A stretch of DNA of 64,000 nucleotides from a virus: IMG/VR virus record IMGVR_UViG_3300044638_006409, positions 1 to 64,000 of that record, one strand, 5' to 3'. The first letter of the stretch is position 1. Each line of letters opens with the position of its first letter. The notes beneath the pieces were generated by a model, which saw only the letters and a list, made by a program, of their open reading frames with translations, searched no databases and was not told the DNA's origin. Made by a program: the position numbers and the translations under genes. Shown in pieces: positions 3,668 to 11,034 of the stretch.

Positions 3668-4789
3668 TTAGATAACGTAAATCTGTCTTGGTAACGCTTG
3701 CATTTTCTTTACTTTGTTAAGATTTTCAGCTAACAAAGCCTCTCTCTCCATAACCTTTTCAGGTCTTAGTCTGGTTAAACGACCTTCAGCACCAATAAGT
3801 TCATCTATGAGTTTAGTCTTTTCATCTTTACCTTCAGTCGCTAATGATGCGTAATCCATAGTAAGTTCACTGTCAGGAGTTTTGATATTACCACTAAACT
3901 TACCTCTTACTTTTGCCAATGTTTCTTTGGCTGATGCAAAAAACCATTTACGAACCCATATTTGAGCTGGGTTATTTAAATCAATCCAACTTATTTTATC
4001 GAAAGGAACATCAGATGGTAATTTAATAATATCAGGATTTTTCTTCAAACAATCGTCTCTATCAGGACCATCAACCTCATAATACCAATACCATACTTTT
4101 CCTCTCATAAGGGTATTATTACCGAAATCAAACTTACCACCAGGTGTTTGCATCAAGTGTATTGCTTTTTTTCCTTCGGGTAAGGCTGTCATTCTGTATG
4201 TTAAATCACCTGCAATAATTCTTCTTTGGATATTAATTTCTTGCATCCTCAATAACATATCAAATGCTGGCATCATAAAGTAAGAACCCGAATAACCCAT
4301 TTGTGAGTACCCGGCAGGTCCTCCAAGACCCGCACCTCCCAATGCACCAAAAGTCCAAGGGTCAAATAAAAGGTTTGTTAATTCACTAGGTGTGAACCAC
4401 AAAAGTTCATTTAATTCTCTACCTGCAGGTATTTCATATATTTGTTGTCCTGGAACTAATTGAATGTAATCTTTTTTGAGTACTGAATCACCACCAGCCT
4501 GTAAACCAACTATTTTTGAATAGGCATATGAATACCTTTCTTCGAAGTCAAAACTTTTTGTGATAAAAGCTTTGGACAATGATTGGGTATCCAAGTTAAG
4601 ATTATATAATGAAGTCCATTGTGATTCGATTAACCAGTCTTGGACATATTGTGAATAATCCTCGATTGATAGCTCCAAAAGTGAATCCAATTGTTCATCT
4701 TCTAATTCAATACTTCTAAGAGGGGCACCTAAAGTGTGTCTCAGTTTTGTATAAAGATTGGTTCTATCTGGTTCTGGAATTATTGACAT
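3668..4789 (-). CDS. Neck protein, T4 gp13-like
   Basis: Probable head-completion/neck protein that joins the portal vertex to the tail. The pattern matches gp13 of T4-like phages as I know them: an N-terminal helical segment with LGAPLRSIELEDEQLDSLL and a nearby DYSQY (residues 20-50), a variable Gly-rich middle, then a strand W-Y-W-Y-Y-E-V, and a C-terminal helical part PAQIWVRKWFFASAKETLAKVRGKF followed by DSELTMDYASL and a long charged helix. Length is 373 residues against 309 in T4; part of the excess is a Gly/Met/Tyr-rich loop around residues 145-175 (GALGGAGLGGPAGY). The other neck genes (gp14- and gp15-like) lie 6 kb away on the opposite strand. A TATTTATA motif lies 14 bases upstream of the ATG. 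Confidence 0.75.
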   Translation of the reverse strand: MSIIPEPDRTNLYTKLRHTLGAPLRSIELEDEQLDSLLELSIEDYSQYVQDWLIESQWTSLYNLNLDTQSLSKAFITKSFDFEERYSYAYSKIVGLQAGGDSVLKKDYIQLVPGQQIYEIPAGRELNELLWFTPSELTNLLFDPWTFGALGGAGLGGPAGYSQMGYSGSYFMMPAFDMLLRMQEINIQRRIIAGDLTYRMTALPEGKKAIHLMQTPGGKFDFGNNTLMRGKVWYWYYEVDGPDRDDCLKKNPDIIKLPSDVPFDKISWIDLNNPAQIWVRKWFFASAKETLAKVRGKFSGNIKTPDSELTMDYASLATEGKDEKTKLIDELIGAEGRLTRLRPEKVMEREALLAENLNKVKKMQALPRQIYVI

Positions 4790-4811: not shown

Positions 4812-4817
4812 TCAAGT

Positions 4818-7550
4818 TTAGGGACATATTATTTTTTTGAAACTTATATTGGATACTGGTTTAGTATTCAATTCTAACTCGTTACTTTGTGGGTTGTATA
4901 TGTAGGTTATTCCATTTTTAACAACCTTAAAACGAATACTCAATCTTTTTTCTTTACAACCTGATTGACCTTTGTTTGACCAATATATTTCAATATTTTC
5001 CATAGGGACTAAAACATTTTCCTCAAAAATAATTCCTTTTAAGTTTTTTCTAATTAGTCCTAAGAATTGTTCACCAACACCTCCTTCCTTAATCTTGTTG
5101 AAGATGTCACTTATTATTTTGTTGTACACTCTCAAATGAGTTGGTTTCAATTTACTTACTTCACTTGATTTAAAAATGGAGAAAAACTCAGACAAATAGC
5201 TATCAACACTAGTATCCATCATTTTCACCTCAAACTTATCATCTTTTGAAAAAACTTTTTTACCATTATAATAGAAATCTGAGGTGGCCATCAAATCAGC
5301 TTTTATGGGTGTTATTGATTCCATATTACTCAATACACAATCAACGACTTCATCAATATACACATCCTCAGTTTCAGGATATTGTAATATAGTGTTAACA
5401 AGTTTAACAAAACTAGATTCACTATCCTCACCACATTTGTAATTTAAACTGAGTGAAGTAGGATATGACTTCATATAAGGTCCGACCAAACTTTCCTCAT
5501 ATTCTGCATATTTCTGTTTTCTAACTGTTCTTAAAAATTCGTCCAATTTTGATGTATTTCGTATTGGTGATGTTTTAAGATTTTCTAGTCTATTTTTTGT
5601 TTCAGTTCCATCAAATTCATCATCCAAAATAAAGTTTGCAATAACTTTCATAAAATTACCTGGTAGGTCGGATAACATAGCCAACTCCAACATTTTGGTG
5701 AATAATCCCCTACCAAATACTATATCTCTTCTTTCTTTTTTAGTTTTGATGTAACTATATGCAGGATAATAAAAATTTATTATGGTATTCAATGCGTCAA
5801 TAACTTCTTGTTTTTCTTGGTCATTAATTTTATCGACAACTTCGTTTTTGAACTTACAATAAATTGAATTTGTGTCACCGAAAGAACATAAATCATCAAG
5901 TAGATTTTCTCTATCAAAACCTATTGAAATTGCTTCAGTTATTCGTTGTAGTTGTTTTTTTGTAATAACTATTTTTTTTGATTCAGTTAAATTTAATTTT
6001 TTTATATTCAAAGATGGGGATTCAAACTTTTTACTCTCTGATTTAAAAATGTATGAAAATCTTTCTTTTGAAGTCCCACCTTCGTCTTTTACCTCAACAT
6101 CTTCAAAATCGAAGAAAATGTAATTATTTTGATTATCAATGAATGCAAAAATTTGGATATTGTTTGAGTCGTATTTATTTTTACTTTTAAATACATAAAC
6201 TATGTTCCCATTTTCATCTTTAGATTCGTATAAGTCAATAGTGGGTTTTACTTGAACATATTTACTATCACCATCTTCGGTTACAAACATATCTTGTCCT
6301 TTATACTTGTCCCTTGTATCACCATCACAAAATTGTGTTATTTGTGAATTTTTGTTTTTAGTGTTGAATATTTCAATCGCAATTCTTTCCCTTTCTATAC
6401 CTCTATCCAAAGTTCCTTTTTTTGTTTTTGGATTTAAAACTATATTTGCTAAACTATTGGTAAACTTTCCCTCATCACCAAACAGAGTTTTTCCCATAAC
6501 ATTAAACCAAGTTTCCAAATCATAGTTTTTACTATTATATTTTTCATAAAACTCTAATATTTTATCACTAATTCGAGTGTTAGCATCAAACCAATTAACA
6601 ACCGACCATTCACCAGTTCCACCCCTTTGACTTACAGCATATTTTCCACCAATAACACCATAGTTTGTTTTACATAAGTCAGTTTGGATTTTACCATAAC
6701 AAGGAGATTCAATACGAGTATCAGGATTGTAATCCCTAATAATTTCAGGAGAACATTTTGGATAAACTTTCTTCAATATTGTTTGAACAAAAACAGGATT
6801 TAGTCTTCCGTTTGGGTTTAATACCTCAACTTCTTCTTTGATTAATTTTTTAGTTTTAACTGATTCAGTTAACTTAGTTTTCTTTTTATCTGTATATAAT
6901 TTATTAACAAACTCCCAATTTATAACATCCCAAAAGTTACCAATGTATTCATCTCTTTTGTTTTGATATTTGAGATAATATGCGTGTTCCCATACATCAA
7001 GACCAAGAATAGGAAATCCACCCCCATCAACTATGTTCATTAGTGGATTATCTTGGTTGGGTGTTGACATTATTTTAAGTCTGTTGTTTTTTGTCAATAT
7101 TAACCAACACCAACCTGAACCAAATCTATCCTTAGCTATTTCGGTGAATTCTTTTTTGAATGAATTAATTGAACCGAAATCTTTAATAATTTTGTTTTTT
7201 ATTTCAGTTGGTATTTCTTGTTTTTTTGGGGACAACATTTTCCAAAATAAAGCATGATTAAAAGCCCCACCCGCATTGTTTCGTATTGTTTTATTGTACT
7301 TCGAGATGGACTTAATAATGTTCTCCAATTCAACATCGCCATAGTTCTTTTTAGATAAGGCTTTGTTCAATTTATCAACATAACCTTTATAATGTTTGTT
7401 GTAATGTATATCCATCGTTTTTCCATCGATGAAACTACTAATTGAACGATATCCAAATGGTAATTTATCAATACCAATTTTTTTTGCTTCAGATAATATA
7501 TCTTCTTTAGTTAATATTATTTCTTTAAGTAAATTTGCTGCTCTTTCCAT
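4818..7550 (-). CDS. Three-part protein: Mn-type superoxide dismutase + nuclease-like domain + unknown domain
   Basis: A 910-residue protein (916 if the upstream ATG at 7568 is used). Residues about 30-220 are a complete Fe/Mn superoxide dismutase, converting superoxide to peroxide and oxygen: ligands H49 (DIHYNKH), H99 (FNHALFW), D185 and H189 (DVWEHAYY) are all present. NNAGG before the second ligand and NQDNPLM (Q166) are typical of the Mn form. Residues about 240-520 hold a PD-(D/E)xK-like pattern (GIERERIAIEIF, D420, Q433-V-K435). Residues 540-910 are unrecognised. The parts are separated by basic linkers with (L/I)xE sites: LTE-S at 229/230, IKE-E at 239/240, LTE-S at 523/524 and ITE-A at 539/540; the N-terminus MERAANLLKE is similar. 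These match the T4 prohead protease preference, so packaging and cleavage are inferred. I prefer the ATG at 7550 because the TATTTATA motif overlaps the upstream start. Confidence 0.85.
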   Translation of the reverse strand: MERAANLLKEIILTKEDILSEAKKIGIDKLPFGYRSISSFIDGKTMDIHYNKHYKGYVDKLNKALSKKNYGDVELENIIKSISKYNKTIRNNAGGAFNHALFWKMLSPKKQEIPTEIKNKIIKDFGSINSFKKEFTEIAKDRFGSGWCWLILTKNNRLKIMSTPNQDNPLMNIVDGGGFPILGLDVWEHAYYLKYQNKRDEYIGNFWDVINWEFVNKLYTDKKKTKLTESVKTKKLIKEEVEVLNPNGRLNPVFVQTILKKVYPKCSPEIIRDYNPDTRIESPCYGKIQTDLCKTNYGVIGGKYAVSQRGGTGEWSVVNWFDANTRISDKILEFYEKYNSKNYDLETWFNVMGKTLFGDEGKFTNSLANIVLNPKTKKGTLDRGIERERIAIEIFNTKNKNSQITQFCDGDTRDKYKGQDMFVTEDGDSKYVQVKPTIDLYESKDENGNIVYVFKSKNKYDSNNIQIFAFIDNQNNYIFFDFEDVEVKDEGGTSKERFSYIFKSESKKFESPSLNIKKLNLTESKKIVITKKQLQRITEAISIGFDRENLLDDLCSFGDTNSIYCKFKNEVVDKINDQEKQEVIDALNTIINFYYPAYSYIKTKKERRDIVFGRGLFTKMLELAMLSDLPGNFMKVIANFILDDEFDGTETKNRLENLKTSPIRNTSKLDEFLRTVRKQKYAEYEESLVGPYMKSYPTSLSLNYKCGEDSESSFVKLVNTILQYPETEDVYIDEVVDCVLSNMESITPIKADLMATSDFYYNGKKVFSKDDKFEVKMMDTSVDSYLSEFFSIFKSSEVSKLKPTHLRVYNKIISDIFNKIKEGGVGEQFLGLIRKNLKGIIFEENVLVPMENIEIYWSNKGQSGCKEKRLSIRFKVVKNGITYIYNPQSNELELNTKPVSNISFKKIICP

Positions 7551-7554
7551 AAGA

Positions 7555-7562
7555 TATAAATA
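7555..7562 (-). promoter_or_regulatory. TATTTATA motif immediately upstream of the SOD polyprotein
   Basis: The motif is 4 bases before the ATG at 7550 and lies within the alternative N-terminal extension starting at 7568. The spacing resembles that at 10522, 16004 and 62087. Confidence 0.45.
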
Positions 7563-7573
7563 TCTCATAAATA

Positions 7574-10474
7574 TTAACGAACAGAATTAATCTTGTTCAT
7601 AATTTGCTCAATGAACTCCGCTCTATCAATATTGTCACCCATAACAGTATCAATAACATTCTTTTTATTAATTAACATATCATAGATAACACCTTCAATC
7701 GTATTATCAAATAGTGGGTAATAGACTGAAACACAATTCTTTTGACCATATCTGTATGCTCTATCCTCAGCTTGTTGGTGATGTGCGGGAACAAAAGATA
7801 GGTCATTAAATATAACAGCCTCGCCTGCAGTTAAAGTAATACCAACTCCTGCAGCTTGTAAATTACCAACAAAAACTTTTATTTTATCGTTATCTTGGAA
7901 TTGGTCAACCGCGTATTGTCTTTGGACTTTTGAGCAAGTTCCATCCAAATAAACAGCTTTCTTTCCAAAATGAGAATGAATCTTATGTAGAGTATCTGTA
8001 AAGTTTGTGAATATGATAACTTTTTTATTAAGTTCCAAAATATTCTCAACAACCTCAATTGTATTCAATATTTTTTCTTCAGCAATTACTTGTCTAACTT
8101 TCATCAATTTATTAAACTGAACTGTTAAAGACCTCGATTCATCAGGATGTTTATTATACCATTCGTAATACTCACCCATTAACTCTTCATACATTTTAGA
8201 TTTTAATCTAAGATAGATAGGTGTAATAATCTTTTCAGGTAAATCTAGTACATCCTCTTTTAATCTTCTTAAAACTTGTCTTGATGTCCTATCTCTTAAC
8301 TCTTCCAAGTTTGACGCCCCATTCACATTCCAAACCTTTCTATTACCCGCCTTAAATTGATATCCTTGACAATAACGGATAACATAAGCCATCCAATTTT
8401 GAGCAACAGGACTTTCAATTAGATTCAATAAATTATAATAGTTAATTGGTCTTGATGTCATTGGAGTTCCTGTCAATAACCAAAGATATTCAACATCCTT
8501 AACAAAACTATTAATTAATTTTGTTCTTTGAGCTTGGGGATTGGATATGTAATGTGCTTCGTCTATAATAACCAAATCAAAATTACCTTTTGTAATTGGT
8601 GAGTTTTCTTTGTCCTTTAAATCATAAAAGTTTTTAATAATGTCATAATTTACAATAACAAAGTCGTGTTCAGTTGAAAAGTTTTTACCCTCACAAATAT
8701 ACACACTTCTATCTGTATAATTTCTAATTTCCCTCTCCCAATTTATTTTAAGTGACGCAGGACATATTATTAATATTTTTTTAGCGCCAGTTTCTAATGC
8801 CGCTAAAATAGTTGATGTTGTATTGTGAGTTACGATAGCATTTTCTGTAACGTATAATTTGTCTGGTGCATCAACTGAAATACATACAGCTTCTCCTTTT
8901 TTTTCAAACTCTATGTTTTTGATATATCGTCCAACCTTGTATTTTTTAGGTGTGTTATATTGTTTTTCTTTTCTATTAAGTTTGAATGGATTCATACCTT
9001 CAGGTAATTTAATATTTACTCTGTACGATTTTTGTCCATCTTTCTTGATTCCTTTATGTGTATAGTTTGTTACTCTTGTTTTTTTTCTTGCTATACCCCC
9101 TAAACTATGTACTATTTCGATAACATCATCACAAAGTTGTTCTGACACAGTTGAGAATTCAGTTCCACTAAAATTACCATCAGTATCTTTATTACAACTA
9201 CCATCGGTATCCATTAACCCTTTCAGTATTTCTAATCTATTTTCAACAGAAGTATATTTGAATATGTTTGGAATAAATTTGTTATTAGATTTAGTTCCCA
9301 TTAATTCTAATTGCTTCAACACTTGAATCAACGGATTTAAATGACCACTAATTTTTGTTAATCTATAACCATATTTTGTACCTTTACTCTCGACTATTTG
9401 AGTATTATGTGGTAAAGTGTCTTTAATATAATCAACAATTTCTGAGTCAGCTGTTGTAAAATGAACAGAATCTTTACTAATTCCCCCATCGCCTATAATT
9501 AAACCCAACAAGTATGGATGTATGGGTAAAATAGTATCCATAAATTCAATAGGTTTTACAATTGGAATTTGCCATTTGTTGTTACCATCGTTTTCTTTGT
9601 AGTATGTTTTATATTTGTAAATTTTATTCACATTATTTTTTGTACCATTTATTTCCAAGTTCAACTTTTTATCCAACATCTGTTCTACAGATAAAACAAT
9701 CGCTTTTTTTTCTCTTTTATTTTTACTATTATCTCCAAATGACCTTGATTTTACGTTAAATAAATGTTCTTTACAAACTAAAATGGATGTGTTGTCATTA
9801 AATGTGACCCTATATAAATCTTTAATTCCTTGTGGATAAACACCAATTACATTACATTTTTTTCCATCACTACCAATAACTTCGTCACCAACTTTTAATT
9901 TACCGATTGGTTTTCTTCCATATGGGGTAAACACCCTATTTTCAACAAACTCAGCTTTTCCCAGCCCCATGTCGTCTGCTAAAATAAATCTTTTACTACC
10001 CACCAATTTTTCTATTGCGGTTCTTTGGTGTTCAAGTGGGGGTCTATGACTATATTTTGTATAATCTATTTTGACCTCTATTGTGTTATGTGTTTTTAAT
10101 AATGCGGCTTTAGGTAACCACATATCTGTCAATGTATCACCAGTATTAAATTTACCCCAAATATGGTATGATTTGTCTTTGTCTACCAATAACTTTTCAA
10201 CCCAAATATCAGTTGGTACTGATAACATATTTTTTTCATCAGCAATCTTGTTTGCAAAATATGGTTCCATATTAACCCACTTCTTTGCAACCTTTGGTTC
10301 AACAGAATGATAGTTGATAATATATTCAGCTTGGGAACGAGTGGGGTAAAACTTTTTATTAGTTTCTTTTAGGTATTTTAATTTTTGAATATAGTTATTT
10401 GTTCCCGAATAATTATCTAATATGTCGAGTGCTTTTAATTCAATAAGATTAGAGGTATTACCTGATATATTCAA
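7574..10474 (-). CDS. SNF2-family helicase/ATPase interrupted by an intein
   Basis: The precursor is 966 residues; removing the intein (residues 174-551) leaves a 588-residue SNF2-type ATPase. The extein has an N-terminal region, a Q-motif-like HQRTAIEKL, Walker A DDMGLGK/TTST (rejoined after splicing), motif Ia ICPASLKINWERE, DEAH box IIDEAH, motif III LLTGTPMTS and, in the second RecA lobe, IIFTNFTDTL and motif VI QAEDRAYRYGQ, which is typical of SNF2/SMARCAL1-like proteins. Such enzymes remodel forks or branched DNA; T4 UvsW fills a related role, but the motifs here are closer to SNF2. The start is a TTG at 10474-10472, since the nearest upstream ATG (10490) is out of frame. The gene diverges from the gp14-like gene and is followed after 5-23 bases by the SOD gene. 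Confidence 0.9.
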   Translation of the reverse strand: MNISGNTSNLIELKALDILDNYSGTNNYIQKLKYLKETNKKFYPTRSQAEYIINYHSVEPKVAKKWVNMEPYFANKIADEKNMLSVPTDIWVEKLLVDKDKSYHIWGKFNTGDTLTDMWLPKAALLKTHNTIEVKIDYTKYSHRPPLEHQRTAIEKLVGSKRFILADDMGLGKAEFVENRVFTPYGRKPIGKLKVGDEVIGSDGKKCNVIGVYPQGIKDLYRVTFNDNTSILVCKEHLFNVKSRSFGDNSKNKREKKAIVLSVEQMLDKKLNLEINGTKNNVNKIYKYKTYYKENDGNNKWQIPIVKPIEFMDTILPIHPYLLGLIIGDGGISKDSVHFTTADSEIVDYIKDTLPHNTQIVESKGTKYGYRLTKISGHLNPLIQVLKQLELMGTKSNNKFIPNIFKYTSVENRLEILKGLMDTDGSCNKDTDGNFSGTEFSTVSEQLCDDVIEIVHSLGGIARKKTRVTNYTHKGIKKDGQKSYRVNIKLPEGMNPFKLNRKEKQYNTPKKYKVGRYIKNIEFEKKGEAVCISVDAPDKLYVTENAIVTHNTTSTILAALETGAKKILIICPASLKINWEREIRNYTDRSVYICEGKNFSTEHDFVIVNYDIIKNFYDLKDKENSPITKGNFDLVIIDEAHYISNPQAQRTKLINSFVKDVEYLWLLTGTPMTSRPINYYNLLNLIESPVAQNWMAYVIRYCQGYQFKAGNRKVWNVNGASNLEELRDRTSRQVLRRLKEDVLDLPEKIITPIYLRLKSKMYEELMGEYYEWYNKHPDESRSLTVQFNKLMKVRQVIAEEKILNTIEVVENILELNKKVIIFTNFTDTLHKIHSHFGKKAVYLDGTCSKVQRQYAVDQFQDNDKIKVFVGNLQAAGVGITLTAGEAVIFNDLSFVPAHHQQAEDRAYRYGQKNCVSVYYPLFDNTIEGVIYDMLINKKNVIDTVMGDNIDRAEFIEQIMNKINSVR
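8822..9955 (-). other. Intein with LAGLIDADG homing endonuclease inside the Walker A motif
   Basis: A 378-residue in-frame intervening protein. It begins at Ala (AEFVENRVFTPYG, right after GLGK) and ends in VTHN before Thr (TTST); excision restores a perfect GLGKTT. Block A-like GKLKVGDEVIGSDG, block B CKEHLF, two LAGLIDADG helices (LLGLIIGDGG and LKGLMDTDGS), block F GEAVCISVD and block G ENAIVTHN are visible. The first residue is Ala rather than Cys/Ser, block F carries a Cys where Asp is usual, and block G carries Thr before His-Asn. These are features of class 3 inteins, which start splicing from the block F Cys. The Trp of the usual W-C-T triplet appears to be Phe. Both endonuclease acidic residues are present, so homing may be active. 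Confidence 0.93.
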
Positions 10475-10510
10475 AATCGTATTTTAACATAAAAATAGTT
10501 AATAAGTTTA

Positions 10511-10518
10511 TATTTATC
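10511..10518 (+). promoter_or_regulatory. TATTTATC motif before the gp14-like gene
   Basis: Motif variant ending 3 bases before the ATG at 10522, in the 47-base divergent region between the helicase and connector genes. Confidence 0.4.
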
Positions 10519-10521
10519 AAT

Positions 10522-11034
10522 ATGAGTAATAGAATGCCCATAACAAGAATAGGTAAGTTTTTTGGAGCTGAAGACTACAATTTAGATTTGTCTATCGGTG
10601 AAGAATGGTTATATGGTGATATGAACTTTACGGTCGTACTATATCGTATTGATAGAATGAAAACCAAAACTGATGATGTTTATGGTGAAGCCCTAAAGGA
10701 TGGAATTAAATTTTTAACACCAGTAGAGTTGAAAGGTTATGTTCAAATTATGGCACCTGAGAATAAACAAATTGCAGGTAATAAAATTAATCAATTTGAA
10801 CCTGGTAATATGCGATTTTCTATTTATCAGAAACAACTTGATGAGTTGGGTGTTGACATCAATTTTGGTGATTATTTGGGGTACTATGAAACGGAGGACA
10901 GAATAAGATATTATACGGTCAATAATGATGGAAGGGTAATTTCGGATAATAAACATAACTATGCGGGTTACAAACCTTATTATCGTACAATTATGGCTTC
11001 TGCTGTAGTTGATAATGAATTCAGAGGATTATAA
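10522..11034 (+). CDS. Neck protein, T4 gp14-like (tentative)
   Basis: Probable second neck/head-completion protein. The order of segments resembles gp14 of T4-like phages: a strand with VVLYRIDRMKTKTDDVYGEA (compare the FYLPRTYV-KKDTIIEE region of cyanophage gp14), then ELKGYVQIM, a strand MRFSIYQKQLDELGVDIN and NFGDYLGYY followed by a strand ending in YYTVNNDG. At 170 residues it is shorter than T4 gp14 (256). It lies directly before the gp15-like gene and the sheath gene, the position expected for a connector, and the next ATG follows its stop by one base. The call rests on this likeness plus context. Confidence 0.6.
   Translation: MSNRMPITRIGKFFGAEDYNLDLSIGEEWLYGDMNFTVVLYRIDRMKTKTDDVYGEALKDGIKFLTPVELKGYVQIMAPENKQIAGNKINQFEPGNMRFSIYQKQLDELGVDINFGDYLGYYETEDRIRYYTVNNDGRVISDNKHNYAGYKPYYRTIMASAVVDNEFRGL

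Follow-up and report, generated by a model that had tools for sequence, protein, structure and literature searches.

An open reading frame (ORF) on the minus strand of the window, by which we mean the whole 64,000-nucleotide stretch of virus record IMGVR_UViG_3300044638_006409 analyzed here, probably encodes a modular, capsid-targeted polyprotein that would be packaged into the phage head and cut by the prohead protease. The 910-amino-acid product of this freshwater phage gene joins an Fe/Mn superoxide dismutase (SOD), a predicted nuclease-like domain (D2) and a third domain (D3), with paired (L/I)xE motifs at the N-terminus and at both domain junctions; we take (L/I)xE to be the cleavage rule of phage T4, which agrees with the sites of T4 Alt. 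Support at the level of sequence comes from the domain content, the site positions, the enrichment of the motif at junctions and its specificity, a change of module after the same linker in a relative, the likeness of the second linker to stand-alone leaders, and, in related phages, an S77-family protease and a capsid prodomain rich in (L/I)xE. The gene is the single ORF at 4818–7550 in a record (G000) of 120,655 bases; its length is counted from ATG 7550, and an alternative in-frame ATG at 7568 would give a product of 916 amino acids. Its parts are listed below, with a slash after the Glu of each putative cut site.

4818..7550, minus strand: SOD-D2-D3 polyprotein ORF, 910 amino acids (ORF translation)
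7488..7550, minus strand: putative N-terminal leader, residues 1–21, with LKE10/ and LSE21/ (site positions; relatives with similar layout)
6900..7469, minus strand: Fe/Mn superoxide dismutase, residues 28–217 (Pfam Sod_Fe_N/Sod_Fe_C; PDB 6gsc)
6813..6887, minus strand: linker 1, residues 222–246, KLTE229/SVKTKKLIKE239/E (site positions)
6000..6812, minus strand: D2, residues ~247–517, PD-(D/E)xK-type nuclease-like, core ~373–513 (alignment, model, fold searches)
5928..5999, minus strand: linker 2, residues 518–541, NLTE523/SKKIVITKKQLQRITE539/A, resembling an internalized stand-alone leader (leader profile, comparison with phage G001)
4821..5927, minus strand: D3, residues 542–910, no fold assigned (alignment; low-confidence model)

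A sequence-only reading of this ORF had proposed pairs of (L/I)xE sites at the N-terminus and in both linkers, and we located them at E10 (NLLKE/I) and E21 (ILSE/A), at E229 (KLTE/S) and E239 (LIKE/E), and at E523 (NLTE/S) and E539 (RITE/A). Cutting would be expected to generate new N-termini at residues 11, 22, 230, 240, 524 and 540. As in T4-type capsid targeting, the N-terminal peptide is ~10–20 amino acids long and ends in (L/I)xE, at E10 or E21. Placing at least two of 13 uniformly distributed sites in all three zones had a probability of 8.5e-5 (1.9e-3 for the two linkers only), values that are generous because the zones were picked after the sites had been seen, a fault of which the comparative tests described below are free.

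The N-terminal domain is, by sequence, a clear Fe/Mn superoxide dismutase, matching both Pfam half-domains (Sod_Fe_N and Sod_Fe_C, E 2.4e-39 and 4.1e-20) and PDB 6gsc (E 1e-62); alignment with 6gsc, with the letters checked, placed H49, H99, D185 and H189 at what we take to be the metal-ligand positions of this enzyme. The middle domain had been called nuclease-like, and fold searches with its predicted model (predicted local distance difference test score, pLDDT, 85.8) bear this out. The top Foldseek match was I-Ssp6803I 2ost (probability 1.00, E 6e-3, with no match reaching E 0.001), and VIA returned a SPARDA protein, 2ost and Hjc at Z 8.1–8.4 across 106–120 residues, close to the level at which the tool itself advises caution; it also matched DpnI, with SPARDA proteins, Hjc and DpnI spanning Z 7.5–8.4. 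E388, GQD420 and Q433xK435 were invariant across 11 aligned sequences, so that D2 combines the core fold with the E..D..(E/Q)xK residues, supporting its assignment as a PD-(D/E)xK-type nuclease-like domain. The model of D3 was of low confidence (pLDDT 67) and matched nothing in fold searches; a conserved KADL..SDF..FEVKxM stretch, with KADL..FEVK invariant in four aligned sequences, is a hint of a nuclease but no proof. SOD, the PD-(D/E)xK-like D2 and D3 are thus carried by one polypeptide, which is the multidomain make-up of polyvalent proteins. Pfam searches of the polyprotein ORF detected no embedded peptidase, no polyvalent-type domain and no HExxH domain of the kind found at the N-terminus of relatives (ZIN), the PHROGs search returned nothing for it, and a peptide-pattern scan of genome_contigs found no relatives of D2 or D3.

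Comparison with relatives gave a sharper picture of the junctions. Scans of viral contigs yielded 237 loci (the best 80 of 170, 77, and the best 80 of 85, with contigs recurring between scans) and 286 ORF rows, with 271 complete ORFs, 160 unique sequences and 62 remaining after 70% clustering; loci L081–L091 were left out. The 286 ORFs carried 22 architecture labels, 15 of them with SOD (two of the 15 are double, as the NUC and D2 profiles overlap), built from SOD, ZIN, D2, D3, REL, NUC and SMA, all module names other than SOD being coined in this analysis. Among the 62 non-redundant proteins, at least one (L/I)xE fell strictly between the domain boundaries at 55 of 61 junctions and at least two at 40. 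Interior segments of the same length had at least one site in a mean of 13.0 and a maximum of 24 cases, and at least two in 1.4 and 6 (1000 draws); the corresponding values for shuffled junctions were 31.8 and 43, and 12.3 and 21 (2000 draws). The motif occupied 7.3% of junction residues vs 1.0% in domain interiors. This 7.1-fold junction/interior ratio for [LI].E contrasted with 0.5-fold for [LI].D, 0.4-fold for [VF].E and 0.3-fold for [AS].E.

A similar result was obtained at the end of SOD, where all 108 distinct proteins with a recognizable SOD end and further protein behind it had a site within the next 40 amino acids; chance expectation for a 32-residue interior window was 26%. These 108 comprise 94 identified by an SOD-end pattern and 14 by a looser one, out of 115 distinct complete SOD-containing proteins; the strict pattern fits 100 of the 115 (94 plus 6), and one further ORF of 202 amino acids has no recognizable end. 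The remaining six proteins, with SOD as the last domain, stop at NELYLNRTK or similar, just short of where the linker would start. Separately, ZIN-SOD-D2 chains (e.g. L016 and L019) end in a tail with (L/I)xE sites of its own (KLKELG..INE), which may be a C-terminal propeptide like that of T4 Alt.

Between relatives, modules part at or near (L/I)xE sites. Around the polyprotein gene, the DNA of a phage from locus L007 (G001) is 81–94% identical to the window, and this homology spans window positions 8812–5982, halts at the E523 codon (5982–5984) and picks up again at 4815, immediately after the stop codon; in between, G001 carries REL in place of D3. In gene pairs at least 88% identical, breakpoints lay no more than two codons from the Glu of a (L/I)xE site in 10 of 24 rows (8% at random) and no more than five codons in 14 of 24 (17% at random), with most pairs counted in both directions. 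The effect was weaker over all gene pairs of differing architecture, a blurred set in which the rows listed mostly stand near 75% identity: the median distance over 665 breakpoint rows was 13 codons vs 23 at random, and 221 lay within five codons of a site (17% at random).

The linkers also resemble the beginnings of separate genes. D3, D2, NUC and SMA were found without SOD as well, and many such genes begin with a leader such as MKIIISESQ....LxE. Upstream of D3, 17 of 19 distinct N-terminal stretches, some of them including another domain, contained at least one site. A profile of 17 leaders, built solely from those fitting an anchor pattern, found its best match at linker 2, between D2 and D3, in all four distinct SOD-D2-D3 proteins (scores 11.0–14.9), among them one that is 99% identical to the query. 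For the detection of linkers in general the profile was rejected, a junction being the best match in just 62 of the 111 distinct proteins outside the SOD-D2-D3 group. Searching the phage collection with a 23-residue leader peptide gave no match, the query being weak at that length. The 55 proteins of the head regions carried N-terminal (L/I)xE at 2.7% vs 1.3%.

A second class of polyproteins shows like leaders in other company. In L255 and L257 an unclassified N-terminal domain is followed by such a leader and D3; in L254, where the leader occurs twice, that domain is joined to an HExxH-containing region and D3; in L261 (3456–4679) it joins the N-terminal domain to a Phage_lysozyme-LysM protein; and other members, including L256 and L260, join that domain to domains without assignment. 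The linker of L260 and L261 reads NMKIIITERQ, with an internal Met (context in L261: NMKIIITERQYKILNE) where a stand-alone gene would start, so that, judged from sequence, it looks like an old start codon. In L073, stand-alone SMA genes with leaders (7053–7523, 9545–10087 and 10091–10555) surround a ZIN-SOD-SMA polyprotein gene, and by their position resemble donors for fusion or duplication. Paired (L/I)xE leaders, e.g. MKKIVRLTESDLxxLxKRxIxEQ, also begin proteins at L091 12475–12939 and 12914–13363 and at L090 30–485 and 14950–16344, which are candidates for further packaged proteins.

No S77 protease was found in G000, and as no head genes were found there either, the protease rule was taken from related phages. 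Peptidase_S77 was present in four of seven related records. Clustered together in G001 are the genes for the protease (PF03420), the Gp23 capsid protein (PF07068), the portal and the terminase. All four S77 records, three of them distinct since G002 and G006 are identical in capsid and protease sequence, place the protease near a gp23-like capsid protein with a prodomain that carries (L/I)xE at E6, E23, E44, E51 and E60, the last site reading FLINE/A(T/A)S. By capsid protein, the nearest cultured relatives include a Microcystis phage (43%) and Flavobacterium immutoviruses (41%).

Several observations weigh against a cut and packaged polyprotein. The sequence-only reading had warned that so short a motif could match by chance, and rightly: the protein has 13 (L/I)xE sites in 910 residues vs 11.2±3.0 after shuffling, and we rejected the motif total in a single protein as evidence. 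Seven of the 13 fall inside D2 and D3, where LSE788 in D3 is invariant in four sequences while D2 shares E333 and E442 with L003 and L014. Such sites, kept in relatives, mean that the motif alone is not enough for a cut site, and together with the chance-like total they left a single protein unable to decide the matter. At the junctions, [LI]..E (4.2-fold), E.[LI] (2.5-fold) and [LI]...E (2.2-fold) were enriched too, partly through doublets such as LIxE, and some junction types were poor in sites (SOD>SMA 1/3, SMA>SMA 0/1, SMA>D2 1/2, SOD>D3 7/9). The break in G001 is not sharp, as protein identity has already fallen to 50–75% across residues 441–520, and 10 of the 24 close-pair breakpoint rows lie more than five codons from any site. 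Of the leader profile's best matches in the 111 other proteins, 10 lay before the first domain and 39 elsewhere, and the three scores listed outside the SOD-D2-D3 proteins were weak (2.5–5.2, raw values without a null). N-terminal (L/I)xE enrichment was nil over 93 G000 proteins (1.3% vs 1.2%). Comparing G000 with head-region ORFs of related phages revealed no head gene, only a single 25-residue match; the record is probably a fragment whose head cluster would lie beyond the window start, where colinearity with G001 places it. The capsid of the Flavobacterium phage immuto has IVSE/A at the FLINE/A position and three (L/I)xE sites towards its N-terminus, and its cleavage rule may be looser. The expectation that capsid and protease follow the same (L/I)xE rule finds support in the S77 protease and FLINE/A prodomain of related phages; in G000 neither was found, and the immuto site departs from the rule. 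The broader proposal of a T4-type (L/I)xE polyprotein gained support from the [LI].E-specific junctions, the module breaks near sites and the stand-alone leaders.

In the mechanism that we propose, a polyprotein precursor would be synthesized late, at the head-building stage, with short basic leaders carrying paired (L/I)xE ahead of each cargo module. The leaders would act both as tags for targeting to the prohead core and as cut sites for an S77 prohead protease of the T4 gp21 type, the pairing of sites providing redundancy. Cutting would release SOD, D2 and D3 inside the head, to be ejected together with the DNA. Linker 2 would be the N-terminal leader of a formerly separate D3 gene, internalized by gene fusion, and recombination at or near the linkers would swap cargo modules within this phage group. 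SOD might shield the DNA in the head or the cell just infected, and D2 might cleave the DNA of the host or of rivals. The steps that we infer are late expression, cleavage, packaging, ejection and the role of the cargoes in the host. We also lean, with less assurance, towards a widespread "string of cargo" system, in which leader-cargo genes became fused head to tail, each capsid-targeting leader turning into an internal tag and cut site; cargoes such as SOD, nuclease-like, HExxH and lysozyme modules would be swapped as cassettes at the leaders, and the head protease would set equal doses of the effectors per virion.

The same sequences could belong to an ordinary multidomain protein working uncut in the infected cell, with the (L/I)xE segments serving as lysine-rich helical linkers. 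The shortness and chance-like total of the motif and its in-domain copies common to relatives would suit this explanation, as would the 28 phage records that match the query in the SOD part alone (the three examined show single-domain SOD genes). We nevertheless consider it quite improbable, as helical linkers agree poorly with the lack of enrichment of the chemically similar [LI].D, [VF].E and [AS].E, with similar segments that begin stand-alone genes and are absent where SOD is the last domain, and with the same motif in the capsid prodomain of related phages.

Packaging by means of the leaders with the protein left largely uncut, the motif serving for scaffold binding, appears unlikely but has precedents in the literature. 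The N4 virion RNA polymerase is packaged without processing (PMC5512222), and in the T4 peptide the residues for targeting and for cutting are partly separable (PMC9026906). With Asp in place of Glu at position 10, processing of the T4 peptide was blocked while targeting was not. However, processing of that peptide needs residues 8 and 10, which by our matching correspond to the L/I and the Glu in the motif, and paired sites fit the cutting redundancy of phiKZ (PMC9026906). Cutting by a protease carried in the protein itself, namely ZIN, would draw on the embedded peptidases of polyvalent proteins (PMC5512222) and on how common ZIN is among relatives, with ZIN-SOD-D2 accounting for 68 of the 286 ORF rows. 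Pfam matches of ZIN stayed under the cut-off, and the SOD-D2-D3, SOD-D2-REL and SOD-NUC proteins have linkers and no ZIN, which makes this explanation highly improbable. As a general mechanism, HExxH self-cutting was rejected, since the window protein retains all of its linkers without an HExxH domain.

Under the preferred explanation of a head-protease-processed polyprotein, T4 is among the closest known systems, its protease and capsid families being encoded by the relatives as well, although the T4 targeting peptide presumably differs in sequence from the leaders described above. T4 IPI-III and Alt, cut by gp21, likewise have a short N-terminal peptide with a Glu-specific cut site, ITE or LTE in Alt (PMC5694885, PMC9026906); Alt is cut at ITE-6 and LTE-619 (PMC5694885), targeting peptides in T4 are 10–19 residues long, and phiKZ propeptides have several redundant cut sites (PMC9026906). 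T4 cargoes are single proteins with a peptide at one end, whereas here a single chain carries several cargoes separated by leader-like peptides. P1 Dar and polyvalent proteins are likewise large, packaged in the head, mixed in domains and in some cases processed (PMC9024508, PMC5512222), and the packaging signal of DarB lies within its first 30 residues (PMC9024508); the window protein, for which packaging would have to be assumed, shows no peptidase of the kind embedded in polyvalent proteins, and would rely on the head protease to cut between modules. Phages phiKZ and SPN3US also have a Glu-specific head protease and several possible propeptide sites, but the rule is S/A-x-E or A-x-E rather than (L/I)xE, and the sites described remove terminal propeptides instead of separating cargoes. 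That a foreign enzyme can function in a head is illustrated by staphylococcal nuclease, which was packaged in active T4 and cut DNA upon calcium addition (PMC3012670).

A further parallel is the PA5oct protein EST35_0261 (L252, 1956–2504), which is SOD-like with an N-terminal ...SIAE/A leader, starting MNDSIKKYISIAE/A. It differs in being a single domain, ~29% identical to the SOD described here and no polyprotein. Annotated as hypothetical, it is flagged for electrospray ionization tandem mass spectrometry (ESI-MS/MS) in the public record, a flag shared in the PA5oct record by a baseplate protein, a structural protein, FtsH and several hypothetical proteins. A search of open-access PubMed Central papers, which covers neither subscription papers nor preprints, gave no description of head-protease-processed cargo polyproteins among the papers listed. 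Targeting peptides, the head protease and multidomain packaged proteins are already known, and it is their arrangement that looks new. If the proposal is true, the head-maturation protease doubles as a polyprotein-processing enzyme comparable to that of many RNA viruses, and (L/I)xE leader pairs give a sequence rule by which host-takeover or counter-defence proteins packaged by uncultured phages, for which virion proteomics is lacking, could be detected. It would also tie a superoxide dismutase to the virion, with protection of packaged DNA or the fresh host cell from superoxide as possible roles, and have nucleases delivered at the moment of entry.

Two copies of a promoter-like element precede the gene:

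7556..7562, minus strand: TATTTAT promoter-like element, 5 nucleotides ahead of the start ATG (frequency among relatives)
7567–7573, minus strand: second TATTTAT copy

Of 82 distinct SOD-containing genes, 66 had TATTTAT in the 24 nucleotides ahead of an in-frame ATG, vs 0.8% of random 24-mers from G000. The count accepted every ATG in frame upstream of the first domain, which favours the element, and the control drew on all G000 positions instead of start regions. Its spacing to the ATG was 5 nucleotides in 24 of the 25 rows listed. The copy 5 nucleotides before ATG 7550, common in relatives, supports 7550 as the start, and the spacing in the SOD genes suggests very short 5′ leaders of the mRNA. 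The element resembles TATAAATA, which we take to be the T4 late promoter, and fits late expression. The octamer TATTTATA or its variants precede 20 of the 93 genes in G000 and 15 of the 55 in the head regions, including terminase, protease, scaffold-like, neck and tail genes and also the DNA polymerase gene; among the genes listed, no such element was found before capsid or portal genes. Its presence before the DNA polymerase gene and absence before the capsid gene mean that it is no marker of head genes alone. Elements of this kind precede many genes of the window and of L089–L091, e.g. 3668–4789 (minus strand), 18530 and 20481.

One neighbour of the polyprotein ORF is the gene at 3668–4789 (minus strand), which partly matches a head-tail adaptor family (phrog_211, E 9e-9). 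Four proteins tried with PADLOC gave no matches. The other neighbour, at 7574–10474, encodes an SNF2-type helicase with an apparent intein at 8813–9955 (minus strand), which shows LAGLIDADG and Hom_end homing-endonuclease matches and has no counterpart in the related phage G001.

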